From the NCBI GenBank assembly GCA_947561715.1, contig OX387199.1, positions 501,001-565,000 of the forward strand: 64,000 nt of DNA, in the 5' to 3' direction. Shown here in pieces: positions 1 to 56,248 of this stretch. Position numbers and translations under genes: made by a program. Below the pieces are notes generated by a model. It did not search any database, was not told the DNA's origin, and saw only the letters and a list, made by a program, of their open reading frames with translations. The DNA comes from Ascidia mentula. Taxonomy: Eukaryota > Chordata > Ascidiacea > Phlebobranchia > Ascidiidae. Within the stretch, counting starts at the first letter, position 1. Each line of letters starts with the position of its first letter.

Positions 1-2
1 AC

Positions 3-1156
3 GACGTTGATCCAGCACCCGATGCCCCTTTTCCACTGGACAGAAGCTCAATTAATCCTGTTGCTACCTCGACACCCAAAAAGAAGAGACGTCCTGACTC
101 CATCAGTCTACTGGAGGTTTCAGACTCTTTCATAATAGATGAATTTTCCATGAATGAGACTTTGTCAGTTTCGCATGACTATACAACAGATATTGCTATT
201 GAACATGGTGATATTGTTTCACCGTATCCCTGGGAGGAATATACTGAAACTGATTTCGTTTCAGTAAAAACCGGTCGAATTGCTGTCATTTCCGAATGTC
301 TTCGTGGCTCCAATTGGCTTAATGACGAAGTGATTGAAACGGCCATCAAATCCTTTGTCAGTTGTGACGAGAGTTTTCTTCTGTGGGATTCCTGTTTTGT
401 TCAGTTGGCGGCCAAACACATGCACGAGGCCATAAGCGGTTATGCTTGTCACAATGAAGCTCTTAACCACGATAATTATGTATTTCTTGTCAACCCTGGA
501 GCACACTGGTTTATTGTTGTAGCCAACCTAAAAGAAAAACAAGTGATCTGCATCGACTCATTGATGTCTTTGACGTCGGAACCAAAACTAGAGTCCATAT
601 TGTTAGATATATTTCAAATAATTAATGCAACTTTTGCCGTTGGTTCTGCATCAACAATGCTGCATCAACAACGGAATGGAACTTCTACAGGTGCCCAGAC
701 GTTCCACAGCAAAAAAATTCATACGACTGCGGCGTACATGCAGTAGCAAATGCCTACTGCATTATCAACAAGCTCCAACTGCCTATCGAATTGCCATCAT
801 CAAAGACCAGAAATTGGATTGCTAATGTCATCGCCAGTTCAGATAAATCACCAACAAAGACCAAGTCAAGAATCAAAATTGCTGAAGCAAGCGAAGCTGC
901 AGAAAGAAATTGGTTGCCATCACACACCAAAATCACTGTCGGGGAAATAGAAGTGAAAAAAATGTTCCAAACCGAAGAAACAACAAGAGAAAACTGGAAG
1001 ATATGCGATGCACTTAAATGCCCGGGAAACAAGGAAACTGTTTTGCAGTTATTTTGCGTTTCGTGCAGAAAGTGGTTCCACAAAACTTGCCTCCCTGGTA
1101 AAGTTGCCGCCAAAGCAGGAACGTACTTTTCGTGCACAAAGGAATTAACAAGTTAG
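3..1156 (+). pseudogene. Ulp1-type (C48) protease plus PHD-like zinc finger, 3' part of a MULE-like transposon gene
   Basis: The reading frame is open to the window edge, so the gene starts upstream. An early basic run (PKKKRR) could be a nuclear signal. The Ulp1/SENP fold is recognisable: WLNDEVIE near the start, the catalytic His in GAHWFIVV, the Asp in CIDSL, then Gln and Cys in QQKNSYDCGVHAV. A Cys/His-rich PHD-like end follows (CDALKCPG, FCVSCRKWFHKTCL). The protease frame is interrupted by a 14-bp tandem duplication at 646-672 (CTGCATCAACAA-TG repeated), so the second half continues in another frame. This is likely a disabling mutation or assembly error. An AATAAA lies at 1301. The same protease-then-PHD order ends the MULE protein at 8,862-13,895, and a minisatellite follows in both cases. 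I infer the 3' part of a related plain DNA transposon; a captured host gene is less likely. Confidence 0.65.
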
Positions 1157-1300
1157 ACAAAACAACTTTAGTAAAACACATGTTAAGCACACGTTAAAAT
1201 ACAGTAGGCCCAACCAATATGTTTGTATCATTTTGCGCTGTCCCAGTTAATAATTTTGTAAGGTGCATCTTTTTCAATTCGTTTTTTTTTCATTGTATTT

Positions 1301-1306
1301 AATAAA
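1301..1306 (+). terminator. Polyadenylation signal AATAAA
   Basis: A canonical AATAAA lies 145 bp after the stop of the Ulp1/PHD frame and just before the minisatellite. The transcript would therefore end before the array. Confidence 0.5.
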
Positions 1307-1369
1307 ATTTGCAATGAACGTTCAATCGGTGTAAATGAATTTCAATACTTACAGATAACTTATGTACAA

Positions 1370-3410
1370 GCTCAATATTTGTCGGTTCCGTAAGCTCAAT
1401 ATATTTTCCTCAGACGCCTTTCGCCAATTCCGTGAGCTCTATCTACTTTCCTTAGACGCCCTTGGTCAGTTCCGTAAGCTCTGTCTACTTTCCTTAGACG
1501 CCCTTGACCAGTTCCGTAAGCTCAATATATTTTCCTTAGACGCCTTTCGCCAATTCCGTGAGCTCTATCTACTTTCCTTAGACGCCCTTGACCAGTTCCG
1601 TAAGCTCAATATATTTTCCTTAGACGCCTTTCGCCAATTCCGTAAGCTCTATCTACTTTCCTTAGACGCCCTTGACCAGTTCCGTAAGCTCAATATATTT
1701 TATTTAGACGCCTTTCGCCAATTCCGTGAGCTCTATCTACTTTCCTTATACGCCCTTGGTCAGTTCCGTAAGCTCTATCTACTTTCCTTAGACGCCCTTG
1801 ACCAGTTCCGTAAGCTCAATATATTTTCCTTAGACGCCTTTCGCCAATTCCGTAAGCTCTATCTACTTTCCTTAGACGCCCTTGACCAGTTCCGTATGCT
1901 CAATATATTTTCCTTAGACGCCTTTCGCCAATTCCGTGAGCTCTATCTACTTTCCTTAGACGCCCTTGACCAGTTCCGTAAGATCGATATATTTTCCTTA
2001 GACGCCCTTTGCCAGTTCCGTAAGCACTATCTACTTTCCTTAGACGCCCTTGGTCAGATCCGTAAGCTCTATCTACTTTCCTTAGACGCCTTTGCCAGTT
2101 CCGTAAGCTCTATCTACTTTCCTTAGACGCCCTTGGTCAGTTCCGTAAGCTCTATCTACTTTCCTTAGACGCCCTTGGTCAGTTCCGTAAGCTCTATCTA
2201 CTTTCCTTAGACGCCTTTCGCCAATTCCGTGAGCTCTAACTAGTTTCCTTAGACGCCCTTGGTCAGTTCCGTAAGCTCGATATATTTTCCTTAGACGCCC
2301 TTTGCCAGTTCCGTAAGCTCTATCTACTTTCCTTAGACGCCCTTGGTCGGTTCCGTAAGCTCAATATATTTTCCTTAGACGCCTTTCGCCAATTCCGTGA
2401 GCTCTATCTACTTTCCTTAGACGCCCTTGGTCAGTTCCGTAAGCTCTTTCTACTTTCCTTAGACGCCCTTGACCAGTTCCGTAAGCTCAATATATTTTCC
2501 TTATACGCCTTTCGCCAATTCCGTGAGCTCTATCTACTTTCCTTAGACGCCCTTGACCAGTTCTGTAAGCTCAATATATTTTCCTTAGACGCCTTTCGCC
2601 AATTCCGTAAGCTCTATCTACTTTCCTTAGACGCCCTTGACCAGTTCCGTAAGCTCAATATATTTTCCTTAGACGCCTTTCGCCAATTCCGTAAGCTCTA
2701 TCTACTTTCCTTAGACGCCCTTGACCAGTTCCGTAAGCTCAATATATTTTCCTTAGACGCCTTTCGCCAATTCCGTGAGCTCTATCTTCTTTCCTTAGAC
2801 GCCCTTGACCAGTTCCGTAAGCTCAATATATTTTCCTTAGACGCCTTTCGCCAATTCCGTAAGCTCTATCTACTTTCCTTAGACGCCCTTGGTCAGTTCC
2901 GTAAGCTCAATATATTTTCCTTAGACGCTCTTGGTCAGTTCCTTAAGCTCAATATATTTTCCTTAGACGCCCTTGGTCAGTTCCGTAAGCTCAATATATT
3001 TTCCTTAGACGCCTTTGGCCAGTTCCGTAACCTTTATCTGCTCTCCTTAGACGCCTTTTGCCAATTCCGTGAGCTCTATCTACTTTCCTTAGACGCCCTT
3101 GGTCAGTTCCGTAAGCTCTATATATTTTCCTTAGACGGCCTTTGCCAGTTCCGTAAGCTATATCTACTTTCCTTAGACGCCCTTTGCCAGTTCCTTGAGC
3201 TCTATCTACATTCCTTAGACGCCTTTGGCCAGTTTCGTAAGCTCTATATATTTTCCTTAGACGCCATATGTCAGTTCCGTAAGCACAATCTAGTTTCCTT
3301 ACACGCCCTTGGCCAGTTCCGTAAGCAGTATGTATTTTCCTTAGACGCCCTTGGCCAGTTCCGTAAGCAGCGTGTATTTTCCTTAGACTATTTCCGTTCC
3401 TTAGCTCCGT
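1370..3410. repeat. 42-bp minisatellite (84-bp dimer), likely terminal array of the left transposon
   Basis: About 49 tandem copies of a 42-bp unit. Two subtypes often alternate. One reads TTCCGTAAGCTCAATATATT then TTCCTTAGACGCCTTTCGCC; the other reads TTCCGTGAGCTCTATCTACT then TTCCTTAGACGCCCTTGACC. The pair gives an 84-bp dimer period. Because 42 is a multiple of three, a 254-aa open frame runs through it, but nothing suggests it is a real protein. The array decays toward 3,300-3,410. It begins about 200 bp after a Ulp1/PHD gene end, which matches the layout of the 57-bp array beside the MULE. I infer that it is the right terminal arm of an element whose other arm lies upstream of the window. 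Confidence 0.85.
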
Positions 3411-3519
3411 AAATTAGTGTCTGTGAATTTCCTTAGGTTCCTTAGTTCCTTAGCTCCGTAAATTAGTGTGAGTTTCCTTAGATTCCTTAGGTTCCTTATT
3501 CCGTAAATTAGTGTTACCC
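3411..3519. repeat. Degenerate array edge and junction between two minisatellites
   Basis: Three loose repeats built on TTCCTTAGCTCCGTAAATTA plus GTGT, clearly derived from the 42-bp family but rearranged. They end at GTGTTACCCC, directly against the first 57-bp unit at 3,520. No target-site duplication is visible at the junction. Confidence 0.6.
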
Positions 3520-6500
3520 CATTTATGGTGTAGCGTGGAAGCATTAAATACTCTAATGTGGTTGGGCCTAGATTTCAATTATGGTGTAGCGTGGAAGCAT
3601 TAAATACTCTAATGTGGGTTGGGCCTGGATTTCAGTTATGGTGTAGCGTGGAAGCATTAAATACTCTAATGTGGGTTGGGCCTAGATTTCAGTTATGGTG
3701 TAGTATGGAAGCATTAAATACTCTAATGTGGGTTGGGCCCAGATTTCAGTTATGGTGTAGCCTGGAAGCATTAAATACTCTAATGTGGGTTGGGCCTAGA
3801 TTTCAGTTATGGTGTAGTATGGAAGCATTAAATACTCTAATGTGGGTTGGGCCTGGATTTCAGTTATGGTGTAGCGTGGAAGCATTAAATACTCTAATGT
3901 GGGTTGGGCCTAGATTTCAGTTATGGTGTAGTATGGAAGCATTAAATACTCTAATGTGGGTTGGGCCCAGATTTCAGTTATGGTGTAGCGTGGAAGCATT
4001 AAATACTCTAATGTGGGTTGGGCCTGGATTTCAGTTATGGTGTAGCGTGGAAGCATTAAATACTCTAATGTGGGTTGGGCCTAGATTTCAGTTATGGTGT
4101 AGTATGGAAGCATGAAATACTCTGATGTGGGTTGGGCCTAGATTTCAGTTATGGTGTAGTCTGGAAGCATTAAATACTCTAATGTGGGTTGGGTCCAGAT
4201 TTCAGTGATGGTGTAGCGTGGAAGCATTAAATAATCTAATGTGGGTTGGGCCCAGATTTCATTTATGGTGTAGCGTGGAAGCATTAAATACTCTAATGTG
4301 GTTGGGCCTAGATTTCAATTATGGTGTAGCGTGGAAGCATTAAATACTCTAATGTGGGTTGGGCCTAGATTTCATTTATGGTGTAGCGTGGAAGCATTAA
4401 ATAATCTAATGTGGGTTGGGCCCAGATTTCATTTATGGTGTAGCGTGGAAGCATTAAATACTCTAATGTGGTTGGGCCTAGATTTCAATTATGGTGTAGC
4501 GTGGAAGCATTAAATACTCTAATGTGGGTTGGGCCTAGATTTCAGTTATGGTGTAGCGTGGAAGCATTAAATACTCTAATGTGGGTTGGGCCTAGATTTC
4601 AGTTATGGTGTAGTCTGGAAGCATTAAATACTCTAATGTGGGTTGGGCCTAGATTTCAGTTATGGTGTAGTCTGGAAGCATTAAATACTCTAATGTGGGT
4701 TGGGCCTAGATTTCAGTTATGGTGTAGCGTGGAAGCATTAAATACTCTAATGTGGGTTGGGCCTAGATTTCAGTTATGGTGTAGTCTGGAAGCATTAAAT
4801 ACTCTAATGTGGGTTGGGCCTAGATTTCAGTTATGGTGTAGTCTGGAAGCATTAAATACTCTAATGTGGGTTGGGCCTAGATTTCAGTTATGGTGTAGTC
4901 TGGAAGCATTAAATACTCTAATGTGGGTTGGGCCTAGATTTCAGTTATGGTGTAGTCTGGAAGCATTAAATACTCTAATGTGGGTTGGGCCTAGATTTCA
5001 GTTATGGTGTAGTCTGGAAGCATTAAATACTCTAATGTGGGTTGGGCCTAGATTTCAGTTATGGTGTAGCGTGGAAGCATTAAATACTCTAATGTGGGTT
5101 GGGCCTGGATTTCAGTTATGGTGTAGCGTGGAAGCATTAAATACTCTAATGTGGGTTGGGCCTAGATTTCAGTTATGGTGTAGCGTGGAAGTATTAAATA
5201 CTCTAATGTGGGTTGGGCCTAGATTTCAGTTATGGTGTAGCGTGGAAGTATTAAATACTCTAATGTGGGTTGGGCCTAGATTTCAGTTATGGTGTAGCGT
5301 GGAAGCATTAAATACTCTAATGTGGGTTGGGCCTGGATTTCAGTTATGGTGTAGTCTGGAAGCATTAAATACTCTAATGTGGGTTGGGCCTAGATTTCAG
5401 TTATGGTGTAGCGTGGAAGCATTAAATACTCTAATGTGGGTTGGGCCTAGATTTCAGTTATGGTGTAGTCTGGAAGCATTAAATACTCTAATGTGGGTTG
5501 GGCCTAGATTTCAGTTATGGTGTAGTCTGGAAGCATTAAATACTCTAATGTGGGTTGGGCCTAGATTTCAGTTATGGTGTAGTCTGGAAGCATTAAATAC
5601 TCTAATGTGGGTTGGGCCTAGATTTCAGTTATGGTGTAGCGTGGAAGCATTAAATACTCTAATGTGGGTTGGGCCTAGATTTCAGTTATGGTGTAGCGTG
5701 GAAGCATTAAATACTCTAATGTGGGTTGGGCCTAGATTTCAGTTATGGTGTAGCGTGGAAGCATTAAATACTCTAATGTGGGTTGGGCCTAGATTTCAGT
5801 TATGGTGTAGTCTGGAAGCATTAAATACTCTAATGTGGGTTGGACCTAGATTTCAGTTATGGTGTAGTCTGGAAGCATTAAATACTCTAATGTGGGTTGG
5901 GCCTAGATTTCAGTTATGGTGTAGTCTGGAAGCATTAAATACTCTAATGTGGGTTGGGCCTAGATTTCAGTTATGGTGTAGCGTGGAAGCATTAAATACT
6001 CTAATGTTGGTTGGGCCTAGATTTCAGTTATGGTGTAGCGTGGAAGCATTAAATACTCTAATGTGGTTGGGCCTAGATTTCAATTATGGTGTAGCGTGGA
6101 AGCATTAAATACTCTAATGTGGGTTGGGCCTAGATTTCAGTTATGGTGTAGTCTGGAAGCATTAAATACTCTAATGTGGGTTGGGCCTAGATTTCAGTTA
6201 TGGTGTAGTCCGGAAGCATTAAATACTCTAATGTGGGTTGGGCCTAGATTTCAGTTATGGTGTAGTCTGGAAGCATTAAATACTCTAATGTGGGTTGGGC
6301 CTAGATTTCAGTTATGGTGTAGCGTGGAAGCATTAAATACTCTAATGTGGTTGGGCCTAGATTTCAATTATGGTGTAGCGTGGAAGCATTAAATACTCTA
6401 ATGTGGGTTGGGCCTAGATTTCAGTTATGGTGTAGTCTGGAAGCATTAAATACTCTAATGTGGGTTGGGCCTAGATTTCAGTTATGGTGTAGTCCGGAAG

Positions 6501-7345
6501 CATTAAATACTCTAATGTGGGTTGGGCCTAGATTTCAGTTATGGTGTAGTCTGGAAGCATTAAATACTCTAATGTGGGTTGGGCCTAGATTTCAGTTATG
6601 GTGTAGCGTGGAAGCATTAAATACTCTAATGTGGTTGGGCCTAGATTTCAATTATGGTGTAGCGTGGAAGCATTAAATACTCTAATGTGGGTTGGGCCTA
6701 GATTTCAGTTATGGTGTAGTCTGGAAGCATTAAATACTCTAATGTGGGTTGGGCCTAGATTTCAGTTATGGTGTAGTCCGGAAGCATTAAATACTCTAAT
6801 GTGGGTTGGGCCTAGATTTCAGTTATGGTGTAGCGTGGAAGCATTAAATACTCTAATGTGGGTTGGGCCTGGATTTCAGTTATGGTGTAGCGTGGAAGCA
6901 TTAAATACTCTAATGTGGGTTGGGCCTAGATTTCAGTTATGGTGTAGTCTGGAAGCATTAAATACTCTAATGTGGGTTGGGCCTAGATTTCAGTTATGGT
7001 GTAGTCCGGAAGCATTAAATACTCTAATGTGGGTTGGGCCTAGATTTCAGTTATGGTGTAGCGTGGAAGCATTAAATACTCTAATGTGGGTTGGGCCCAG
7101 ATTTCAGTTATGGTGTAGCGTGGAAGTATTAAATACTCTAATGTGGGTTGGGCCTAGATTTCAGTTATGGTGTAGCGTGGAAGCATTAAATACTCTAATG
7201 TGGGTTGGGCCTAGATTTCAGTTATGGTGTAGCGTGGAAGTATTAAATACTCTAATGTGGGTTGGGCCTAGATTTCAGTTATGGTGTAGCGTGGAAGCAT
7301 TAAATGCTCTAATGTGGGTTGGGCCCAGATTTCAGTTATAGTGTA
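3520..7345. repeat. 57-bp minisatellite, left inverted arm of the MULE
   Basis: About 67 copies of a 57-bp unit containing GTGGGTTGGGCCTAGATTTC, AGTTATGGTGTAGCGTGGAA and GCATTAAATACTCTAAT. The main variants are GCGTGG, GTCTGG and GTATGG after the TGTA, and GGGCCC versus GGGCCT. A 56-bp variant (one G missing in ATGTGGTTGGG, always with CAATTATGG) recurs at about 3,557, 4,297, 4,467, 6,062, 6,346 and 6,630. The last three are exactly 284 bp apart, giving a five-unit higher-order repeat. The length of 57 (19 codons) keeps long frames open, up to 546 codons; I treat these as by-products. Confidence 0.95.
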
Positions 7346-8861
7346 GCTTAAAAACTTTATACTCTGTGGGTTGGTGTATGACTGGAACTATTATATTTTG
7401 GTTTTGCTTCGCTTACTTTGCACAAGCTCAGACCATCAGAATGAAGCATGTTGCCAATGTGTTTAGATCCATTAACATAATTTAGGTCATTCTATTTTGA
7501 CTATGTTGGTTTCAACAAAAGACAAATGACATTTGAAGCGACAAGTCAAACAGAAGACACAAATCAAAAGGTTTGTTATGATTTTATTAAAAAAAAACAA
7601 TTTTAAATGCTACTTGAATTTCAGCTGAACATCTGCAATGCTTCTGTTGGAATATTACATCTGTGGAAATAAAGTATAATTTGAATAAGGTAAGAATTAC
7701 TGTTAAGTCTTTAAAGTTCATTTTGTGTGGTCCTTTTTACTCCTTCCCAAAAATGAAATTATTTTATATCATACTATGGATATGATAGTGTCTGTCGTCA
7801 TACTACAAAATATTTTCACTTCGTATATTGTTTACATTGGATTTAAAAAAATGGATATTCCTGTATGATTCTTGATTGATAAAACAAAATTGTTACAAAG
7901 CTTTAACACTGCAGATTCTGCAAAGATAGAAGCCACCCTAAATAAGCTGCAAGAAACCAGATACAAATTTCCAAACATATTTTTTACAAAGTTGAAATCT
8001 TTATAAAACACACTATCTCATGTTAAACAGCATTTGTGTTATATATATTGTTTTGTGTATGCTAATTGTGATGCAATAAACTGTTTCTGCTACTGCCAGA
8101 CAATGCAAAGTTAAATGAACTTCCTTTGGGCACAAACATTGCACTCTTTGTCACATGTCGCTACAAAAATGGTGCTATTTGTTTTGTAATCGAATTCTCT
8201 TTTTTTTGGCGAACTAAGTGCTTTTCAGGCTTTCCAAATAAATAATGTTTGCTTATATGTTGATGGACTGCATTTTTATGTTGTGTTTGAAAAATTCCTA
8301 CCACGCCCAGGAGGCTTTTCCATGTGGTCGTTGGCATTTTTGATAACCCAGATGCCTCGCCAGTAGCCATATGAAACTGGGTTGAACAACATAATACGAG
8401 TTGAAGAAAACACAATACTTAAATAGTATGGTCTTAAAATCACTCTGCAAAAGTGTTACACCTCTCAGGTTGAAGCCTGATTGGTCAGTTTTACCATCGC
8501 AAGGTATGGTATGAAATTCACTCTGCGAAAGTGTTACACCTCTCAGGTAGAGTCCCGATTGGTCAGGTTTACCATCACTCTACGAGTGTTACACCATTAG
8601 GGTCAAAACCCAAAGGTATGGTAGGAAATTCACTTCGCAGGAGTGTTACACCTCTCAGGTAGAGTCCCGATTGGTCAGGTTTACCGTCACTCCAAGAGTG
8701 TTACACCCTTTGGGCCAAAACCCAAAAGGTACGGTATTACATTCACTTTGCAGAAGTGATAAAACTAAAAAAATTGGGACATTGTGGTTGTTATGGTATA
8801 GTGAATAAATTTCATTTGGCTTGTGTTCTTATTTGTTTAACAGATTGTAATGTTGTTTGAT
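7346..8861. other. Non-coding left internal region of the MULE
   Basis: About 1.5 kb between the left arm and the transposase stop codon. It is AT-rich with no convincing coding frame. Its only structure is the subterminal repeat block at 8,440-8,765. Confidence 0.6.
8440..8765. repeat. Imperfect ~115-bp subterminal tandem repeats
   Basis: Three to four imperfect copies of a block containing AGTGTTACACCTCTCAGGTA, GATTGGTCAGGTTTACC and AAAACCCAAAGGTATGGTA. Each holds an inverted CCAAT box (ATTGG) and the near-palindrome GTGTTACAC. They lie between the left minisatellite arm and the 3' end of the MULE gene. Position and periodicity would suit transposase-binding or promoter sites; that is inference. 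Confidence 0.7.
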
Positions 8862-11800
8862 TTACAATGTGCACACAAAATATTTATCTTTTTTTGCTTG
8901 CTTCTCTGAAAAACCAACACACATGATGTGAAACCACTGTCCACATCGAGTGCACTCAATCCAAACTTTTTTCAGGGGATTGGCGCCTTCATCTCCACAT
9001 ACTTTACATGTCTCTATTTCATTTGTGCCTTGAAGACACTTGCCAGCAATTTCCCTTAACATTTCAAGTCTATAGCTGTAGGTACAAACATTTTGCACAA
9101 GTTTTTCTCCAGTTGCCAGCCATTTTGCATACATACATATCATCACTCCACAGCTTGATCCATCTGGCTGTTTTGTTCTGTGTGGTATTTCCACAGTATT
9201 AATTTTCCAAACAAACTTTGTTGCCATTAGACAATTCACCATAGCTTTTGCAGTTTGAACATTGCTGTCTGTTTTTACACAAGGCATTGCTACTGGGTCT
9301 ATGTACAGCATTTTTCGACCAGGGATGTCAACTACAAGCAAAACCCAGTGGAAGCCTGAAGAGTTCCAAGGTATAAACAGTGTTTGTTTCCCTTGCAAAT
9401 TCATCCCTTCCCAAACTTTTTTAATTGAAGCTTTTCTTTGTAATATTTGAGCCACTGTCGAACAAACATAAAGTGCGTGTTGGTGCACACCAGTTAATCG
9501 CCACAAGTAGCTGTTAATGACTTCATCATAAAGCCAACCAACATTAAATCTGCTGTCATGCTTTTTAAGCTCGCAAACTTCAGCTGGTGGCAATGAGTCA
9601 TCCAGAGATTTTAACTCCAACAAAGAAATTGAATGAGGGCCGTTTTTCAAAATTGTACCAGAAGCTTTGTAACCGGTAACATGGGCTGTGATGTTTTTTT
9701 GCATCATTGAGTGTTTGTTCCGAACAATATCCATACAAGCCTCACCAGAAGATTCATGTTGGTCACAGGCTTTTGCTGCATGTGGGGTTGTTAATTTTAC
9801 ACTTTTCTTTGATCGAGGAAACAAAGTTGTTACTTGGTGCAGCGGCTGCATAAGGTTGGCAAATTGTCCAACCCATGATGAAAATGGATTGAGCTTTGGT
9901 CGCTTGCGGGGCAACTCATCATGGACAGTATTTTCAGAAGGTGTTGTTTTTCGCTTCCTTTTCAATGACTTAAGTTCTGGAGGTTGAGTAATTCTAAACC
10001 CAGAATCGTATGAACATGCTTTAGAAAACTTAGCCACCATGGCATTGCCATCAGAAATGCCTTCATCCAAAACCTGCTTGGAACTGACATCATATGAAAG
10101 GTCTATCAAATGCTTCATTAAATCAATAAACTTTTGATGGCTTTGTTTGCGATCTGAGGTTTTGTTGTCAGTACCGCAGGTTTTGTCGTCAGTTACAATG
10201 TTTTCAGGTTGAGAAATTGATTGGTTTGTGGAGGAATTCTTGATGTCTTGTGTTTTGACCACAGTATCACAAACAGTTTCAGCTGACAATTTTTTCACAA
10301 CAACCGGATCCAAAACCATGTAAACAGAATTGGAGTACCAATCTGGCAGACTATGCCATCCAACATCTGCATACTTGTTAAAAATTGCAAACATGTGTTT
10401 GCATGGTAAAAAATTGTGTAAAAAATCATGACATGTACACTTTGGAAAATCTCTTTCGGTGCCAAATTTAATGGTGTATATTTCAGAAGAGGAACTGCTT
10501 AATACAGTGAACAAGTCCCCTTTTCTACATATAGAACTTGCCTGAATGTTTGTAGTTTCTCCGATACGTTTTATACAATGTTTTACCAATTTTCTTGGTC
10601 GGTTTCGAAGAAAGCTGGGAACCTCAGCGTTGTAACTTCTGTAATTGCCAGAAGATCTCATGTTTTGTTGTTTGTATCTGCTCAAAGTAAAATTTATTGA
10701 TTAATTTTGATTGCATGTTCTTGCATATAACCATAAATGTTTTATTCGAGGTACACTCACTTCTCATATGCATTTGGCAAAAATTCGTGGTGCAAAATTG
10801 TAATTAAGCCAGAAAGCGACTTATCAGTCCGAAATCGCACATGGCATTCTTTTAAAACTCGGTTTTGTCTCTCAACACCATTGTTGGTGCGGATCAAAAC
10901 CTTTAACTGGTCTGCTCGATAGAGCCACATCCAACGCTACAAAACGTGCATGAACAGAAGTCACATTTAACATATATGTTTTGTAAATACTCAAACCTCT
11001 TTATCCTTAAGCCAAATATTTGTGAAGTATTTTTGTAGTTTTGGGTTGTTTTCCCAAACTGAACTTGACTCAAATATCTGCAGTGCATTGTTGCAGCTTT
11101 TTTCACATTCAGCGTTAGCAATTCCTCTCATAAATGTCAAAACTTTGTCCTTGTCTGGACCTACTTGGTTTTCAGATTTTTTAACCCATCTTTCCCATGC
11201 CTGTTCACGATGAAAATCGCAAATGAGGACACGGACATCTAGAAAATAGTTATTTTTACATATGTGGTACATGTATATTTGATGCAGAACTTTAACCTGT
11301 AAAAATGCTTTCAATGGCATGGATCTCAGCATCACATTTATCTACCATAAAAAATGATGGTTGCCATGCAGGAGTCCATTCTTTCAATATTTTCAGTGCC
11401 TCTTCAATGTCCAATTGTCTTTCATTCTGTGTAATGAAACTGGCAACAACTTGATAGCCAACATTTGTCTTCACACAGAGAAAAAACAATGGGAGAGCAT
11501 ATTTGGATGTCTTGTAGGTAGCATCCATTAGACAAATGTCTTGGCCGTAGCGCAGAAGCAATCTACGCTGCCATGCAAACTGATGGATAAACAGCATGAT
11601 TTGTTCAGATTGAATGACTGGTGCTGTTTCTCCATCAACTACTTCAGGTTCCATGTTAGCAATGAATGGCCGGAAATATATTTTGTCATTGGCATCTCCT
11701 GCCTTCACCCATTCATCCACCAAGCACTGGACATTAGTTTGATCAATTTTTGCAAATCTGTGTTTACAAAATACTCGGTAATAATGACTTTGAATGTCCT

Positions 11801-13895
11801 TTTTTGTTGGATAAAATCTCCTGTTTGAAGTAGATGGTGGGGTATCATTTTGAAAAAGTTCATGGGCAACATAATGTTTTAGGCTTCTAAGAATTTCCTC
11901 AATACTGCATACACCTTCTGTAACCAATTGATCTATTTTGGCAATTATTCTTTGATCAACAGGTTGAAGGAAACCAGCAGCCTTAAAATATGTAATATGG
12001 TGAATAAACAGTTCAAAAGTAAACATTTAATTTAAATAACATCCTTACTTCCCCTAAAACATGACCGGTGTGGTCATCCTGAGATGGAAAGCAAACACTG
12101 TAAGTTTGTTGCTTTAGCAAGTGCTTATCGTTGTTTTGCAGCAAATCTTTTACAACAACACTTGTCTTGTCCATTTTAGATTTACATTTCGTGGTTATCT
12201 AATCATATTACAGAATAAATTATTGATATCCAACTAAATAAAATTAGATTCAAACAAGTTGAAGAAGTACCTGAAACTGTGGAAACTTCATAATTTCCTG
12301 AATTACAATTTTTGCCTTGCAGTTAGTTTTTTTGGTCCCTTGAATGCACAAATGTTTTTTGCAAGGATTTGGATGATCTTGCAACTGATCAAAGGGGTTT
12401 CAATATTTTATCATAGAAAACATAAAGTCACTTACATGTGTAGGTGGTGCAACATGACGCCTTTCATTTTTAATCTTGATGCGATCTTTAGAATGTTGGC
12501 ATTCCAAGACCTTTGTTTGTACTATGATGTAGGGAGTGGATGTACTGTCCCAATGCAAGCGACCTATTAAAATATCTAAAAAAAATCACAAATGTAATCA
12601 GTTTGTATTGTCATACAATTATGGCTTGATGAACTTTCTTTTAATAAGTAAAACTAAGCTAAAAAGCATGCCTTTTTTTATCATACCAAATGAATTCTTC
12701 GAGAAATGAATGAACTTTGTCAATGTGGAGATTTCAAATTTCTCAACTAAATCATTTGCCTGAGTCATTGAACAAGCCCACTGCAACAATTGTTGGATTT
12801 ACTCTAAACTTAAATTTATAAACTGCACCAATTACCAGTCTTATATTACCTGCAAATTTTGTTTGCTATTCTCCTTTGCTGCTTCTGATATATTTTGCTA
12901 AAATAAACAACCACACATATGCACAAAGCATTGTGTTAAGCTATACAATTTACTAACCATTTTACTTAAACAAGTGAATTCATTCTTCACAAACTTCACA
13001 AAATATCTCTCTTCCTGTTGTAAACCTGCACCTTGGCTATTAAGGCTTTCTCTTATTGTTTTGCTTGCCTTTTCAAGATTGTATTTTGATAGCTTGTTCT
13101 GTGCCCAAGATATTAATGCAATGATAGTTAATAACATTTAAATGTATACTTACTAAGCCTTCAAACTTTGCAAACACCAAAACATCAAAGATGGTTATTA
13201 CATATTGATATAGTTTGTTTGGTTCAGATTGGCGGTCAAAATGCCAAAGTGATTCAAAGCACTCTGAACGTGTAATTATGTATGGTATGGCAGCATCATT
13301 CCAATGCACTGAGCTTTTACATGCATCTTCAAACGTAAAAAGAGGTTTCGAAAAAAAAACAGTACCATCGTGAAAACAAGCACCCACAAACAACAAAACT
13401 CACCATGTGATTTAATTAACGGGGACTTTAAAGTTAGTGCACATGACTTTTTGAATTGATGCAGCATATTTGTTGCTTCATGTTTGGATCCATACCACTA
13501 ATAAATAAAAGCACAAATGAAATACTTCCATAATACAACAAAAACGTGTTCATGTGCCTGAATATAGAACTTTTATTACTACTTCACAGATTCTTAGACC
13601 AATTTGTGACAATGCAAGTTTCATTCTTTAATATTCACAGCATAATAACTAACCTTCTCTAGAGTATTTGAGAATGTAAATTCCTTCTCACCGAATGCCA
13701 CTTCATTTAGGATGCTAAAGCAAGTATTAAAATAGTTTTTAGGATTTAGAAACGTTTTACATCTTACCAATGTTGAACAATATCTTCAGAGATTATTAAA
13801 TTTTTTGGCATTGGCACACAATTTCGAAATTGCCGAGACTCATGAGAGTCAACAACATCTTCCAAAAGACTGAAACTTCTTTTACAAAAAAACAT
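8862..13895 (-). CDS. MULE transposase fused to SWIM, Ulp1 protease and PHD finger (14 exons, ~1,342 aa)
   Basis: Exons (high to low): 13768-13895, 13654-13714, 13404-13497, 13154-13326, 12958-13098, 12850-12897, 12687-12759, 12436-12563, 12271-12384, 12049-12198, 11297-11981, 10997-11238, 10761-10936, 8862-10677. They sum to 4,029 nt, in frame throughout. Domains in order: a Cys/His FLYWCH/GCM-like DNA-binding region (about residues 245-350; CKKHLCIQGTKKTNCKAKI ... DDHTGH); a MULE DDE transposase (about 520-720) with DATYKTSKYALPLFF, MVDKCDAEIHAI, LICDFHREQAWERW and NNGVERQNRVLK; a SWIM zinc finger CTCHDFLHNFLPCKH (about 818-832); and a Ulp1/C48 protease with His (GFHWVLLVVD), Asp (LYIDPV), Gln and Cys (KQPDGSSCGVMIC). 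A C-terminal PHD finger follows (CKVCGDEG ... CTRCGQWFHIMC). All catalytic residues are present. It would cut and insert the element in the nucleus; the protease role (SUMO-like substrate) is unknown. Start chosen at the first in-frame ATG. Confidence 0.85.
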
Positions 13896-14009
13896 CTGTT
13901 CGCACAAAATCAATTCGATTTTTAGCAGAACAGAACCTAAATAAACAATAAATACAAATGGTCACTACAAATAAACCAAACTAAAGTAATTTCTATTTTA
14001 CACATAAAG

Positions 14010-14964
14010 CTTCCACGCTACACCATAACTGAAATCTAGGCCCAACCCACATTAGAGTATTTAATGCTTCCACGCTACACCATAAATGAAATCTAGGCCC
14101 AACCCACATTAGATTATTTAATGCTTCCACGCTACACCATAACTGAAATCTGGGCCCAACCCACATTAGAGTATTTAATGCTTCCACGCTACACCATAAA
14201 TGAAATCTAGGCCCAACCCACATTAGAGTATTTAATACTTCCACGCTACACCATAAATGAAATCTAGGCCCAACCCACATTAGAGTATTTAATGCTTCCA
14301 CGCTACACCATCACTGAAATCTAGGCCCAACCCACATTAGAGTATTTAATGCTTCCACGCTACACCATAACTGAAATCTGGGCCCAACCCACATTAGAGT
14401 ATTTAATGCTTCCACGCTACACCATAACTGAAATCTAGGCCCAACCACATTAGAGTATTTAATGCTTCCACGCTACACCATAAATGAAATCTAGGCCCAA
14501 CCCACATTAGAGTATTTAATGCTTCCACGCTACACCATAACTGAAATCTAGGCCCAACCCACATTAGAGTATTTAATGCTTCTACGCTACACCATAAATG
14601 AAATCTAGGCCCAACCCACATTAGAGTATTTAATACTTCCACGCTACACCATAAATGAAATCTAGGCCCAACCACATTAGAGTATTTAATGCTTCCACGC
14701 TACACCATAAATGAAATCTGGGCCCAACCCACATTAGAGTATTTAATGCTTCCACGCTACACCATAACTGAAATCTAGGCCAAACCCACATTAGAGTATT
14801 TAATGCTTCCAGACTACACCATAAATGAAATCTAGGCCAAACCCACATTAGAGTATTTAATGCTTCCAGACTACACCATAAATGAAATCTAGGCCCAACC
14901 CACATTAGAGTATTTAATGCTTCCAGGCTACACCATAACTGAAATCTGGGCCCAACCCACATTA
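14010..14964. repeat. 57-bp minisatellite, right inverted arm of the MULE
   Basis: About 17 copies of the same 57-bp unit as the left arm, in reverse orientation (ACACCATAACTGAAATCTAG, GCCCAACCCACATTAGAGTA, TTTAATGCTTCCACGCT). It shares variants with the left arm: the GTCTGG form (seen as CCAGAC), the GGGCCC form and the one-base-short form (near 14,440 and 14,670). More units carry TAAATGAA here than on the left. The arm is roughly four times shorter than the left arm. Confidence 0.95.
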
Positions 14965-15473
14965 TATTCTTCAAAACATTCACGGTTCAGTTGACACGTT
15001 TCAGACTACAGCGCACTTCACGCACATTTGACGCACGCACAACCTTGTCCATTGTTAAAAGCGATTGTGACGTCATAATCTGGTTTGCGTCGATGCCCCC
15101 GTTATGTGGTCAATGTATCTACCTAACATTCCTTCTTCTGTTGAAAAACTCTTGTTAACTTCGTCAAATAGGGGGGTTTCCCCTATTTATTGATAATAAA
15201 GTAAACAAACATTTATTTCATCACAATTCCCTTCTGGAATAATATTTTATTCAAAAGGAGAAAAGAACGTGTACCAAGTAAAAACTGTTAATAAAAAACA
15301 AATACCCCAATGTAATGTCTAAACATGTTTATAAGGAAGAAAAAAATTGCAACATTTAAATAACCATAATTAACTGGGGGTAGGTATATGTACGGTTACA
15401 TATGAAAGATGGAACGTTAGTTAGGTTTTGATGTCAACATATGCAAATTGCTTCGGCAAGTGTGATGACGTAA
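14965..15473. other. Intergenic flank between MULE and kelch gene
   Basis: Unique sequence beyond the right arm. It should hold the 3' UTR of the minus-strand kelch gene. No open frame or repeat of note was seen. Confidence 0.5.
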
Positions 15474-18400
15474 TCATACCCAAGCTACCAAAGGCGCGTA
15501 TAATAATTGTTCGTTTGTTTCGAAATCCACCACCCACTGGTCGGTTGTGACGTCATAGACCTCAATTGTGCTGTGCTTCGTATCGGTGTCGGCGCTGTGC
15601 AAAAATATTAATGTAGACGTGTTTCAAACGTAACATCACAAGCAAATTTATCCTGGTGGTCAGTGACATGTCGAGCTTCGCTTTCCGGCAGAATTTAACT
15701 TTTTGGGCGAAATATATTTGATACGCCCGGTGTGGCTCACAAGTAAGCAAACAGGGAAAAATCACTCCATTAATATTTGAGTTTTTATCGCCGTCCAAAA
15801 CGTGATTGCAATTATGTCATAGAAAAAAAAATTAGGCCAAATTCCGCACATCAATGAGCTTCAATCAACAAGAGTTTCAAAAATAACTTTGCCAATTAAT
15901 TAGTGTTGAATATCTTACCCCCCTGCCACATAAATCTTGTTCCCCACTGCGCATGCGCGGCATCCCCTTCGTTTTGAGTTCATTGAGGAGACTGCCATCC
16001 AGCGGTCAGCTCTCTGGTCGTACTTTTCAACAGTATCCAGGGGTTGACGTTTGCTGCCATCCGCATCGCCACCTAACGGCAGCATTGATTCATGGAAATT
16101 ATTTGTTAGTTTTAAAATCAAAATCTGCAAGCAAGCGTTTTTTAAATCACTTTCAACACTTTTAACCGAACTACCAACCGATGGCGTAGATATGTTCTCC
16201 CACAACAGCCGCGCTCATCCACCGCCTGCATGACGTCATGGGAGCTACAGATCGCCACCTGGTGTCTCTTGGGTCGTATGATTCCACTATATTCAGAGGC
16301 CGCATGCGATTGTGGCCACCAAGCGAAAAGATGCATCCTGGCAAACAATGGAGGTTTGACGTCATTTCATGTCGGGTGGTGTTCGGAGAAAACGATACAA
16401 ACAAGACTTAGTTTCTGGAATGACATTTGGTCCTAAATTGATGTTTGGCAGTTTGAAACGATTTGCTGCTGTTGCCAGAAGCAACTTACATACAGGGGTC
16501 ATCGAAAAGCCTTAAGAACAGACTTGGAAAAGTGTTGGTTTGCCCCTTGCGGTCATGACAAGCAGTTGACATTTTGGAACCTATATTTTACGACTGCACG
16601 TCGGTTTCAATGTCGAAACGTTATAAAAAAAAAAAAATTTAAAGTTTATAGTTTAAAAAATTAATAATTTTGAATCCTAAATCTTTTTCCAAACTTATAA
16701 TTCAACACAATCTCATTCGGAAGTTCGTGGATAAAATTTTTGGGAAATATTTTCTACCATTGCACGTGACCAAGGCATGAGCTGTCCTCTTCTCCTTCAT
16801 GGGGGGTTTCTTCATCCATTGATCAACATTCACACATAACTCCTCGCATGATGGGAGGAATTGAGAATCCTGATCAGCTCCTCCAGCAACGAACACGTTT
16901 CCTGAAGGTCAACGGAAAGGTCACACTAATTAACTATTTAATTGTTAAAGTTGACGCCTTACTACAAAACTATGTCCATGACCCCAGAATCCCGATGGAA
17001 AAATATTAACTTCAAGTGGGATTCGAACCGGCAACCTGTGGATGTGGTATTCAGTATATTTTCAATAAAATTTAACATTTTTACCAACAAATGGTTCATG
17101 GCAGTATTTGGGGAAGTGACAAACGAACCATAAGATTACACTCAAACCACTTTTGGTTTACGCCTTAAAAAAACGTAAGAATGCCCACCATCTATTGACG
17201 TCATCCCGAAACAGAATCTTCTCTGGTGCATCGGCCTCAGGTTCAACCATCTGACCTCGTCATCACGTAAGTTGCAACATTCGATCGAGCTCGTCACGTT
17301 AACACCCATACGAACCTGACCTCCGGCCAGGAACACTTTGTGATCAACGACGGTTGCGGCCGAGTCGTACCTCGGTGTAATGTTGCCCTGAAATACACAA
17401 ACCCTTGGTCAAAATCTCCATGCGCGTGCACCAGCTATGTCAGGGTGCGATTTGTCAGCAGTATTTCATAATATATATGTCGTAGGAACTTTAAACAGAC
17501 AGACAGACGACTTAGGATTATTCATCATATTTCGTACTAATCCGTTATTGAGTCTCTGTCAGCCATAGAGATCATATAGGCGATTCTAAGAAATCAAAAT
17601 CTCTTTTCTCAGTATTTCATCGAATAAAATATGTCGCTGTTGGAAATGCAATACAAAATGTAAACTTTGGAGATATTCGAGCCATGAAACGCAAAACATA
17701 GAAAATGTTAATTGCAATTATAAGAAAATCTATGATTTTACACCGGATGAAGCGAATAGGGTCTCGCGAAAGCTCATGTGTTTTAAAGATAAAAGTCGTT
17801 AGTGTCACAAGACCGTTACGACTTTTTAAATAACTCAACTGTGAAGGTTTTCAACTGTCGACTCGCGATTTCTATCTGATGAACTGAGTTGCTGATTTTG
17901 TCGGAGCCGATCAACAGAAGTTTTCCCTGAGGTTCTGTGGATTTAAAACATTTGATAAAAACTAACAAGAGTTTAAGTCAAGACTTAAATTTATTGATTT
18001 GTTTCTGTTCTGACCTTCGTATCCGGACGAATTCCTGCTCAAGGTCATTGCGGCCATGCGCTTGTGCAAGATTTCGACGAACTTCTGCCACATGTCGGTT
18101 GATTCACGCAATAAAGGCTATTAACAAATAATTCTGGAATTGATGACGTGATTTTCTAATCCACAGGTTTAAGGCAAGATAAAAAACGTTTCGTAATTTA
18201 CCTCATGATAAACAACATTGTTTAGGAACATAGACGACAACTCATCCATGTTGATTAATTTCATCAGTTCCGGAAGTTTATCCTTGCGCGTATCCACATC
18301 ATGTCGGATCCATCCAATGAGCTTATTGTACATTTCCTCTTCGGGGATTTTCTTCATAATTGTTTTTAAAATAGTTTGGTTGTTTGGAATTTTTTAGAAA

Positions 18401-49483: not shown

Positions 49484-51180
49484 GGGTCTAGTGCGGAATC
49501 GTACGTACCTATGTTCCAGAAACCGGGGAAACCCCAAATTACGTCACAATGAAGGTGGGGTCAAGTTATGACGTCACACCAAAAATTACGTCACTGTGAC
49601 GTCACTGGCTGAAGATACGCACCGACGAAGATTCTCGCCTACACGTACATACGCAGTTCTCCTATAGGCATCGGAAAGGCGACGAAAGGCACAACAGCAA
49701 CGAAGAAAATACGTGTTTACGCTTCATTGATTATTCAATAAAATAAACATTTTACAAGCTTGAAATTGCCTACGATCAACCACAAGGGTATCCAAAAGCA
49801 ATATAAGAAAAAAATGAAGCTAAGCATAGCGCGTATTAGCGCCGTTGGCGGTAAATATGTCACAAAGTGAACAATTGTACGTCGCCCTGAAGGAGATGTC
49901 GCACAGACTTAATTTTTTGCACAGACAGCCACAAGTGTCACCAAACCACCATACTTAAAAATCTAGGCGATAACGAAATATTAACCCTATTTAAATCGAC
50001 GACAAACTTTTGTTTGTGACGTAACACCTACATTTTACGTCAGTTTCAATTGGTTGTCACATGTTATGAAGAAGAGTACCAATTTTATAATCGAGCTCAT
50101 TCACAATCAAATCCGACAAGTATTTCTCTTGAAAATAAACAAAACGTTAACCCATGCTAATGCGCTTCAGCGCCGCGGTCGGTAAACAACTATCAACATG
50201 TGCAATAGTTCGTAACCATGAAGGAGACGTCGCAGAGACTTGAAATTTAGAACGAATGACAAGAAGAGACATATAACAAACATACTAAAAACACAAGTTG
50301 CTACCTTTTTATTAACCCTCTTTTAAACATCGATAAACTTTTGTTTGTGACGTAACAACGTTGATGATAGATGGATTAGATCAAAATTGTAGTCATCTTA
50401 TAACACCGTCCCTCCTGCACAATCGTACCAAAATTTACAATAATCGGAGAAGTACTTTACCTTTCACACCTCAAAACATACACACACCTCTTCGCACTCT
50501 GGCGCCGTTGGCGGCAAGAGAGGGTACCAAGTGCGGAATCGTACGTAACCATGAAGGAGACGTCGCAGAGACTTGAAATTTGGTACAAATTATAAGAAGA
50601 GACATATAACAAACATACTAAAAACACAAGTCGCTACCTTTTTACTAACCCTCTTTTAAACATCGATAAACTTTTGTTTGTGACGTAACAACGTTGATAA
50701 TAGATGGATTAGATCAAAATTGTAGTCATCTTATAACACTGTCTCTTCTGTACAATCGTACCCATTTATACATTAATCGGACCAGTACTTTAGCTTGTAC
50801 ACCTCGAAACATACACATATCTCTACGCACTCTGGCGGCGTTGGCGGCAAGAGGGGGTACCAAGTGCGGAATTGTACGTAACCATGAAGAAGACGTCGCA
50901 GAAACTTGAAATTTGGTACAAATTATAAGAACGGACATATAACAAACATACTAAAAATTCAAGTCGCTATCGCTTTATTAACCTTCCTTAAATCAACGAT
51001 AAACTTTGTTACGTAACAATATATAATAGATAGATTAGATCAAAATTGTAGTCATCTGATAACACCGTCCCTTTTGCACAATCGTACCACTATTCACAAT
51101 AATCGGAGAAGTACTTTACATTGTACACCTCGAAACACACACACACCTTTACAATGAAGGACGTGACACATTAAAAATTG
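49484..51180. repeat. Merlin left terminal inverted arm with tandem units
   Basis: The outer unique part (to about 50,020) pairs with the far right end. Then come about three repeats of about 333 bp, each containing TTTGTTTGTGACGTAACA, GATTAGATCAAAATTGTAGT, an AATCGTAC core and CATGAAGGAGACGTCGCAGA, and GGCGCCGTTGGCGGCAAGAG-like segments. The innermost unit is truncated. Confidence 0.85.
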
Positions 51181-54034: not shown

Positions 54035-56248
54035 CCTTACTTTATTACGTCACAAACAAAAGTGTATCATTACTTAAAAGAAGGTTAATAAAGCGGTAGC
54101 GACTTGTGTTTTTAGTATGTTTGTTATATGTCTCTTCTTGTCATTCGTTCTAAATTTCAAGTCTCTGCGACGTCTTCTTCATGGTTACGTACGATTCCGC
54201 ACTTGGTACCCTCTCTTGACGCCAACGGCGCCAGAGTGCGTAGAGATATGTGTATGTTTCGAGGTGTACAAGCTAAAGTACTGGTCCGATTAATGTATAA
54301 ATGGGTACGATTGTACAGAAGAGACAGTGTTATAAGATGACTACAATTTTGATCTAATCCATCTATTATCAAAGTTGTTACGTCACAAACAAAAGTTTAT
54401 CGATGTTTAAAAGAGGGTTAATAAAAAGGTAGCAACTTGTGTTTTTAGTATGTTTGTTATATGTCTCTTCTTGTCATTCGTTCTAAATTTCAAGTCTCTG
54501 CGACGTCTTCTTCATGGTTACGTACGATTCCGCACTTGGTACCCTCTCTTGCCGCCAACGGCGCCAGAGTGCGAAGAGGTGTGTGTATGTTTTGAGGTGT
54601 GAAAGGTAAAGTACTTCTCCGATTATTGTAAATTTTGGTACGATTGTGCAGGAGGGACGGTGTTATAAGATGACTACAATTTTGATCTAATCCATCTATC
54701 ATCAACGTTGTTACGTCACAAACAAAAGTTTATCGATGTTTAAAAGAGGGTTAATAAAAAGGTAGCAACTTGTGTTTTTAGTATGTTTGTTATATGTCTC
54801 TTCTTGTCATTCGTTCTAAATTTCAAGTCTCTGCGACGTCTTCTTCATGGTTACGTACGATTCCGCACTTGGTACCCTCTCTTGCCGCCAACGGCGCCAG
54901 AGTGCGAAGAGGTGTGTGTATGTTTTGAGGTGTGAAAGGTAAAGTACTTCTCCGATTATTGTAAATTTTGGTACGATTGTGCAGGAGGGACGGTGTTATA
55001 AGATGACTACAATTTTGATCTAATCCATCTATCATCAACGTTGTTACGTCACAAACAAAAGTTTATCGATGTTTAAAAGAGGGTTAATAAAAAGGTAGCA
55101 ACTTGTGTTTTTAGTATGTTTGTTATATGTCTCTTCTTGTCATTCGTTCTAAATTTCAAGTCTCTGCGACGTCTTCTTCAGGGTTACGTACGATTCCGCA
55201 CTTGGTACCCTCTCTTGCCGCCAACGGCGCCAGAGTGCGAAGAGGTGTGTGTATGTTTTGAGGTGTGAAAGGTAAAGTACTTCTCCGATTATTGTAAATT
55301 TTGGTACGATTGTGCAGGAGGGACGGTGTTATAAGATGACTACAATTTTGATCTAATCCATCTATCATCAACGTTGTTACGTCACAAACAAAAGTTTATC
55401 GATGTTTAAAAGAGGGTTAATAAAAAGGTAGCAACTTGTGTTTTTAGTATGTTTGTTATATGTCTCTTCTTGTCATTCGTTCTAAATTTCAAGTCTCTGC
55501 GACGTCTCCTTCATGGTTACGAACTATTGCACATGTTGATAGTTGTTTACCGACCGCGGCGCTGAAGCGCATTAGCATGGGTTAACGTTTTGTTTATTTT
55601 CAAGAGAAATACTTGTCGGATTTGATTGTGAATGAGCTCGATTATAAAATTGGTACTCTTCTTCATAACATGTGACAACCAATTGAAACTGACGTAAAAT
55701 GTAGGTGTTACGTCACAAACAAAAGTTTGTCGTCGATTTAAATAGGGTTAATATTTCGTTATCGCCTAGATTTTTAAGTATGGTGGTTTGGTGACACTTG
55801 TGGTTGTCTGTGCAAAAAATTAAGTCTGTGCGACATCTCCTTCAGGGCGACGTACAATTGTTCACTTTGTGACATATTTACCGCCAACGGCGCTAATACG
55901 CGCTATGCTTAGCTTCATTTTTTTCTTATATTGCTTTTGGATACCCTTGTGGTTGATCGTAGGCAATTTCAAGCTTGTAAAATGTTTATTTTATTGAATA
56001 ATCAATGAAGCGTAAACACGTATTTTCTTCGTTGCTGTTGTGCCTTTCGTCGCCTTTCCGATGCCTATAGGAGAACTGCGTATGTACGTGTAGGCGAGAA
56101 TCTTCGTCGGTGCGTATCTTCAGCCAGTGACGTCACAGTGACGTAATTTTTGGTGTGACGTCATAACTTGACCCCACCTTCATTGTGACGTAATTTGGGG
56201 TTTCCCCGGTTTCTGGAACATAGGTACGTACGATTCCGCACTAGACCC
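54035..56248. repeat. Merlin right terminal inverted arm with tandem units
   Basis: Units at about 54,040-54,370, 54,375-54,705, 54,710-55,038 and 55,043-55,371 repeat at 333 bp. They are followed by a diverged unit and the outer unique part. The middle three are almost base-identical. Each carries a 71-codon open frame (MMIDGLDQNCSHLIT ...), also seen in the left arm; I regard it as a by-product of repetition. Confidence 0.88.

Follow-up and report, generated by a model that had tools for sequence, protein, structure and literature searches.

A Mutator-like element of the ascidian Ascidia mentula with a predicted transposase ending in an Ulp1-type protease and a PHD finger

Can a single spliced gene of an animal encode a Mutator-like element (MULE) transposase that carries its own SUMO-type protease and a chromatin reader? 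This question is raised by a locus in a stretch of 64,000 nucleotides from the ascidian Ascidia mentula (assembly GCA_947561715.1, contig OX387199.1, positions 501,001 to 565,000 of the forward strand; hereafter the window, to which positions without a prefix refer), for which an initial annotation had proposed such a protein. Our results support, with a probability of roughly 0.85, the reading that the gene encodes the transposase of a recently mobile, autonomous MULE in an animal genome, with a C-terminal tail whose roles we infer. To our knowledge, the function of Ulp1-type proteases in transposases has yet to be explained. The present family, in which the gene looks intact, the ends are perfect, and sister copies are identical, makes the role of such a tail approachable in an animal element that has moved recently; discussion of that role dates back at least to 2010 (PMC2836005).

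Gene structure and domains of the predicted transposase

The transposase gene extends from position 8862 to 13895 on the minus strand and comprises 14 exons (13895-13768, 13714-13654, 13497-13404, 13326-13202, 13098-12958, 12897-12850, 12780-12687, 12575-12436, 12384-12271, 12198-12049, 11981-11297, 11238-10997, 10936-10761, and 10677-8862). The frame is uninterrupted, and all 13 introns have GT-AG borders. When the joined exons were translated from the start codon chosen in the initial annotation, the coding length was 4,014 nt including the stop, corresponding to 1,337 amino acids without interruption. The 14 exons and the long intact frame proposed initially were therefore confirmed, and the proposed length of ~1,342 codons had to be corrected to 1,337 amino acids. 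Support for the splice sites, which are partly conserved, came from a comparison with eight diverged copies covering introns 3 to 13 (the fetched copies end before exons 1 and 2). For introns 8 to 13, both splice dinucleotides were conserved in 43 of 48 cases, the failures being intron 8 in L047, intron 12 in L054, intron 9 in L064, and introns 8 and 10 in L066. Introns 3 to 7 were intact in the nearer copies and failed partially in six of the eight (L052, L054, L055, L058, L064, and L066). In the nearer copies the exons were more similar than the introns, as exemplified by L047 (80-90% for exons 9 to 14 and 46-62% for introns 9 to 13); in the distant copies L064 and L066 the similarity of exons 4 to 6 did not exceed that of the introns. 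A single open frame of 612 codons in the last exon encodes the SWIM finger, the protease, and the PHD finger, and their fusion is thus independent of the splice prediction. The locus is best read as a single, intact-looking gene for a MULE transposase, with all three of these domains predicted in its own last exon.

Pfam profile searches were performed with the whole protein of 1,337 amino acids and separately with the last exon, and all four domains expected from the initial annotation, MULE, SWIM, Peptidase_C48, and PHD, were recovered. The N-terminal domain, initially described as a FLYWCH-like zinc finger, was instead found to be ALS2CR8-like (residues 236-432, E 2.2e-35), and no FLYWCH family was matched at E<=1 by the whole protein. 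It is followed by the DDE/RNaseH core, which matched ZSWIM1-3_RNaseH-like (residues 491-598, E 4.4e-13, 49.7 bits versus a cut-off of 27.2) and MULE (PF10551, residues 515-603, E 3.3e-11, 43.9 bits versus 27.6), as expected for a MULE DDE transposase. The ALS2CR8-like domain and the core (residues 491-603) together occupy positions 11297 to 12575 of the minus strand, with the final codons of the core in exon 12. The Asp residues of DICLMDATY and FMVDKCDAE were invariant across seven aligned copies. Exon 13 (10761 to 10936, minus strand) contains, as read in the translation, the likely catalytic Glu in the motif NNGVERQN, which we take to be the third catalytic residue of the core. The SWIM finger (10371 to 10445, minus strand) was recognized by PF04434 above the cut-off of 19.6 when the last exon was searched (21.3 bits) and slightly below it for the whole protein (residues 811-835, E 0.0012, 18.8 bits); its CxC..CxH motif was present in 15 of 15 aligned copies.

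The protease domain is located at positions 9087 to 9548 of the minus strand (Pfam E 5.9e-10; residues 1153-1263 with E 5.3e-9 in the whole protein). In a sequence search against proteins of solved structure, the best match of the protease was SENP2 (E 2.5e-7), and the four residues His (9350-9348), Asp (9299-9297), Gln (9170-9168), and Cys (9152-9150) aligned with their SENP2 counterparts, in agreement with the initial proposal of an Ulp1/C48 protease with a full set of catalytic residues. The His, Gln, and Cys residues were conserved in 15 of 15 aligned copies. By resemblance, the protease may be specific for SUMO. That its substrate is ubiquitin or NEDD8 instead appears quite unlikely to us. 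The bacterial deubiquitinase/deneddylase Dub1 was also among the matches (E ~2e-4), but the SENP2 match is both better and longer (stretch 385-533 compared to 436-528 for Dub1), and the protease possesses the two Trp residues of WLYDEVIN and HW, presumably the pair that flanks the Gly-Gly tunnel in SENPs. When the C48-PHD tail was modeled from its own sequence alone, the mean predicted local distance difference test score was only 36.1.

The PHD finger at the very end of the protein (8868 to 9008, minus strand, Pfam E 2.9e-7) scored above the profile cut-off of 24 also in the whole protein (residues 1290-1336, E 2.4e-6, 27.9 bits). The finger announced by the initial annotation was thus found, but with seven of the eight zinc ligands of a C4HC3 finger: a stop codon occupies the position of the eighth ligand (C7+3). 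When 29 loci were searched with a motif for the PHD end, the stop was at C7+3 in all 17 loci that matched. Twelve loci were unmatched; among these, the stop was at the place of the eighth ligand also in L015 to L018, L021, and L037, as judged by reading, and L023, L028, L032, L033, L034, and L038 were left unassigned. Inspection by eye of 220 bases in 13 copies, chiefly in the focal copy, revealed no additional exon 3′ of the stop from which the eighth ligand might come; donor-like strings containing GT overlap the stop in many of these 13 copies and are absent from L037. Perhaps the domain is a conserved seven-ligand PHD finger in which the terminal carboxylate would complete the zinc site. 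Its matches among solved structures included KDM5B, ALFIN-like 3, KDM5A, CXXC1, EBS, and BPTF, with E values from 2e-4 to 6e-3. Several of these PHD fingers bind histone H3 methylated at lysine 4 (H3K4), and histone binding of the H3K4 type may be expected for the present domain by resemblance.

Matches to C48 in two pieces (profile ~6-101 and 156-206) were also observed in two clusters elsewhere in the genome (C1:26842845-27066601 and C1:23075385-23088748), where no MULE or ALS2CR8 match was listed. These clusters perhaps represent a tandemly expanded gene family of the Ulp type. Two Glyco_hydro_6 matches were also obtained in the genome (32.0 and 27.8 bits at a cut-off of 27; E 9.2e-6 and 1.1e-4) and none in 14 control genomes, prokaryotic as far as they were named; these matches fit a tunicate host, as this domain is joined to cellulose synthase in tunicates.

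Element ends, copies, and recent movement

The transposase gene sits in a complete Mutator-like element. Its right terminal inverted repeat (TIR) lies at positions 14969 to 15123 on the minus strand and the left partner at C52:489639, outside the window; the two ends were identical in 201 of 201 compared bases. The TIR is 155 bp long, perfect in the copy on C70, and starts with GGTAGATACATTGACC. The target site duplication TAACATTCC follows at 15124 to 15132 (plus strand), and the same 9 bases adjoin the left TIR at C52:489630-489638. Subterminal minisatellites were detected with Tandem Repeats Finder (TRF) on both sides: a 57-bp unit in 16.9 copies on the right (14005 to 14964, minus strand) and the inverted 57-bp unit in 67.2 copies on the left (3523 to 7347, plus strand; inverted repeats 94-97%). 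The 57-bp array sequence was also found, in L091, on the left side of a second MULE, which is nested in the left array of the focal element. Because of this insertion the element spans 26.5 kb (~12 kb without it), and its left end lies 11.4 kb beyond the window. The DDE core, the long TIRs, and the 9-bp duplication are features of MULEs, and the inverted arms, whose tandem repeats number 67 and 17 in the window copy versus 26 and 38 in the C70 copy, the two copies compared, are those of a Foldback-type composite TIR. The TIRs, the target duplication, the minisatellite arms as parts of the element, the sister copies, and the nested element all go beyond the initial annotation.

These ends bear on whether the gene could be a domesticated host gene, comparable to ZSWIM or CARF, that lies between repeats by chance. 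The best Pfam matches are indeed named for host genes (ALS2CR8 and ZSWIM1-3), but the gene is flanked by identical TIRs and a 9-bp duplication, and it has many copies elsewhere, including identical sister copies. The probability of a domesticated gene is therefore close to nil.

A 37-base end pattern, allowing up to 3 mismatches, gave 37 matches in the genome of 195.8 Mb, compared to 0 for the reversed control. Ten end pairs, of more that can be derived from these matches, were inspected together with one pair in L069/L070, and an exact 9-bp duplication was present in 9 of the 11 pairs (8 of the 10 and the pair at C70:19.54). In the window copy and four others with 98-99% identity, the last-exon frame of 612 codons was open throughout, and it was interrupted by stops in L014 (near-identical) and L021 (76% identical). 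The copies at C70:19.54 and C70:20.31, which are 0.77 Mb apart and have different duplications, are both 10,521 bp long and identical in 4,836 of 4,836 bases. Identity over this length between two copies that differ in their duplications shows that the element has transposed recently, but does not prove that it is active today. In viral contigs scanned with the DDE alignment there were 65 pattern matches, of which none was confirmed as a relative.

The 3′ part of the nested MULE (C52:490228-504519), recognized by its paired TIRs and target duplication, occupies positions 1 to 3519 of the plus strand, with the right TIR at ~3494-3519. Its duplication CATTTATG(G) measures 9 bp when counting starts from GGTAAC on the left and from GGGTAAC on the right, and 8 bp when it starts from GGGTAAC on both sides. 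When the flanks were joined, a 32-base string across the junction had one occurrence in the remainder of the left array, three in the right array, one in L070, and none in L069. The MULE core of the nested element was found by Pfam upstream, in L092. The catalytic part of a C48 domain and a PHD-like end are encoded at 626 to 1156 (plus strand, Pfam). The C48 match, with 30.9 bits at a cut-off of 20.7, is split over two reading frames, presumably corresponding to two exons; the PHD match of 19.6 bits is below the cut-off of 24, and there is no Cys at the site of the eighth ligand. A SWIM-like CxC..CxH stretch was noticed by eye only, no SWIM match being obtained with Pfam at E<=0.1. A 42-bp subterminal minisatellite in 47.3 copies follows at 1385 to 3368 (plus strand, TRF). 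Elsewhere, at C70:13821003-13841105, four close end pairs (242-306 bp) with the TIR type of the nested MULE were observed, which are clustered short non-autonomous derivatives resembling miniature inverted-repeat transposable elements.

Selection on the tail and its possible role

The ratio of nonsynonymous to synonymous substitution rates (dN/dS) was calculated by the Nei-Gojobori method for nine pairs formed from 9 of the 23 last-exon sequences; the pairs share sequences and are thus not independent. For the C48 domain dN/dS was 0.16-0.35 in all nine pairs, for the SWIM region 0.12-0.32 in eight measurable pairs, for the linker 0.24-0.41, and for the PHD finger 0.09-0.79 in the eight measurable of nine pairs. 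Between lineages, purifying selection acts on the codons of the protease. The same holds for the PHD finger in most comparisons, single values on 53 codons being weak.

MULEs are prone to acquire fragments of host genes (PMC6446971), and the C48 and PHD domains could be fragments captured passively and without function, as in plant MULEs. But the tail is in frame and shares one exon with the SWIM finger, it is 48-100% identical across lineages, its dN/dS values are mostly well below 1, and a similar tail is present in a second MULE subfamily, which makes capture without function very improbable. Both this and the host-gene explanation were rejected on the evidence of the TIRs, the target duplication, and selection.

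Several observations weigh against an autonomous element with a functional tail. The PHD finger is one zinc ligand short, and its dN/dS reaches 0.79 for L009/L015 and 0.52 for L009/L017 (L009 being the focal copy), so that over these 53 codons selection is not demonstrable. Some dS values exceed 1 and are saturated, again in pairs that share sequences. Among the 15 aligned copies, L026 and L031 have Asn in place of the catalytic Asp of the protease, and in L029 this position lies in a gap; some lineages may accordingly be devoid of protease activity. One end pair (C71:4.02) has no duplication, and another (C71:12.76) has one of 10 bp. Finally, the analysis is confined to sequence.

Judged from its family membership, the transposase would bind its own TIRs, perhaps also the arrays, by means of its zinc domains, and its DDE core would move the element by cut and paste. 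Every transposase molecule would bring along its own protease and PHD tail. The C48 domain, as an isopeptidase, would strip SUMO from proteins at the element, at the target, or from the transposase itself, and the PHD finger would dock the complex on H3-tail chromatin of the H3K4-methylated type. Silent chromatin is favored by SUMO in yeast, plants, and animals (PMC8131101), and the insertion sites of maize Mu co-localize with marks of open chromatin (PMC2774946); because of these reports, both roles proposed for the tail become concrete. The suggestion of the initial annotation that the protease counters SUMO-based silencing and that the PHD finger steers integration would be compatible with this scheme.

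We give roughly even chances to the removal of SUMO being the real job of the tail. It is rather doubtful that relief from silencing would be the main benefit of such removal. Alternatively, in the same element, the protease might serve transposition by removing SUMO from the transposase or from repair factors, and not the escape from silencing. Such a role has been proposed for the Ulp1 and OTU domains of transposases (PMC2836005), and it would fit a protease that is fused to the transposase and not encoded separately, but the present data do not separate it from an anti-silencing role; we consider it a serious possibility, somewhat short of an even chance. In its most specific form, an anti-silencing role would make the transposase its own anti-silencing factor, whose seven-ligand PHD finger, closed by the C terminus, docks on H3K4-type chromatin while the SENP-like domain frees the silencing factors there from SUMO. 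This form we regard as unlikely. If it were true, each enzyme molecule would bring relief from SUMO-dependent repression, and the tail would have been inherited across MULE subfamilies. Such inheritance is suggested by the focal element and the element nested in it, the C48 domain and a PHD-like end being found in both subfamilies.

Related systems and neighboring sequence

The initial annotation regarded a spliced animal protein of this kind as unusual. It is indeed one transposase with a protease and PHD tail, but the combination is much less unusual than claimed, as passages of PMC2836005 contain precedents. Ulp1 domains were named there in 2010 for Mutator elements of hydra and lancelet, which, compared by description only, carry the Ulp1 domain at the C terminus of the transposase as in our element. 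Ginger1-9_HM of Hydra is listed with Ulp1 and PHD, side by side as here, but the core of Ginger is a Gypsy-type integrase, unlike that of the present element. A figure legend of the same paper reads "Alignment of the Ulp1 and PHD domains in Ginger1 TPases, Mutator TPases" and leaves the Mutator elements with a PHD domain unspecified (PMC2836005). Minisatellite arms, present in our element, are not mentioned in the passages on the hydra and lancelet Mutators and Ginger1-9_HM (PMC2836005). For plant MULEs with Ulp1 (Arabidopsis, maize, rice, and melon), the protease is likewise located on a Mutator element, the hosts being plants and a PHD finger being unstated in the passages concerned (PMC2836005).

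Among the animal MULEs, Rehavkus is described with a 9-bp target site duplication, a TIR of 26-400 bp, a PHD finger, and a minisatellite before the 3′ TIR (PMC6446971). The focal element shares the 9-bp duplication, a TIR within this length range, the PHD finger, and a minisatellite adjoining the TIR. It differs from Rehavkus in that the hosts of the latter are arthropods and annelids, Ulp1 is absent from the Rehavkus table row, and arrays are present at both ends of our element (PMC6446971). By description, the focal element is possibly a member of Rehavkus. Phantom MULEs resemble it in having animal hosts including tunicates, duplications of 8-10 bp, FLYWCH or SWIM in some members, and, in aphid, a minisatellite after the open reading frame, whereas the Phantom table row contains neither Ulp1 nor PHD (PMC6446971). 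The Tm1 Mutator/Foldback elements of root-knot nematodes likewise possess composite TIRs with variable tandem repeats, a 9-bp duplication, and a MULE-type transposase, but their units measure 13-15 bp, the transposase is Phantom-like, and the text contains neither "ulp" nor "protease" (PMC3169594). A literature search, whose scope did not include Repbase Reports, found no paper uniting MULE, Ulp1, PHD finger, transposase, and SWIM. New here is a well-preserved animal element; protease-plus-PHD tails in animal transposons have already been described.

A possible second gene on the plus strand (7341-8860) was considered and not confirmed: when three of its peptides were compared with the 1.5-kb flanks of diverged copies, no match at E<0.5 was obtained. 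Within it, the stretch 8295-8382 is 84-95% identical between copies whose last-exon proteins are only 55-73% identical, and shows frame-breaking indels among copies. It may represent an RNA element, a separate repeat, or the terminal exon of a second gene.

In the 3′ flanks of L015, L016, L019, L026, L029, L030, L032, L034, and L037, arrays of 82-105 bp units of four families were observed 3′ of the transposase. They contain, on the strand that does not encode the transposase, a possible micro-exon of 18-24 nt (a multiple of 3, preceded by a pyrimidine-rich AG and followed by GTRAG); other lengths (16, 23, 40, and 41 nt) also fit the pattern in some. On the transposase strand the pattern had no match except one in L037, and shuffled single units scored in 2-21%. 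A similar pattern occurs in L036 and L023 on the same strand as the transposase. A convergent gene of tandem micro-exons is possible, the test having been made after the arrays were seen.

Directly past the right end of the element, reading frames resembling Kelch repeats were seen by eye at 15421-16214 on the minus strand. Farther downstream, TRF detected two arrays of 333-bp units ~3 kb apart (50204-51152 and 54045-55528), whose consensus units, compared by eye, resemble reverse complements of each other.

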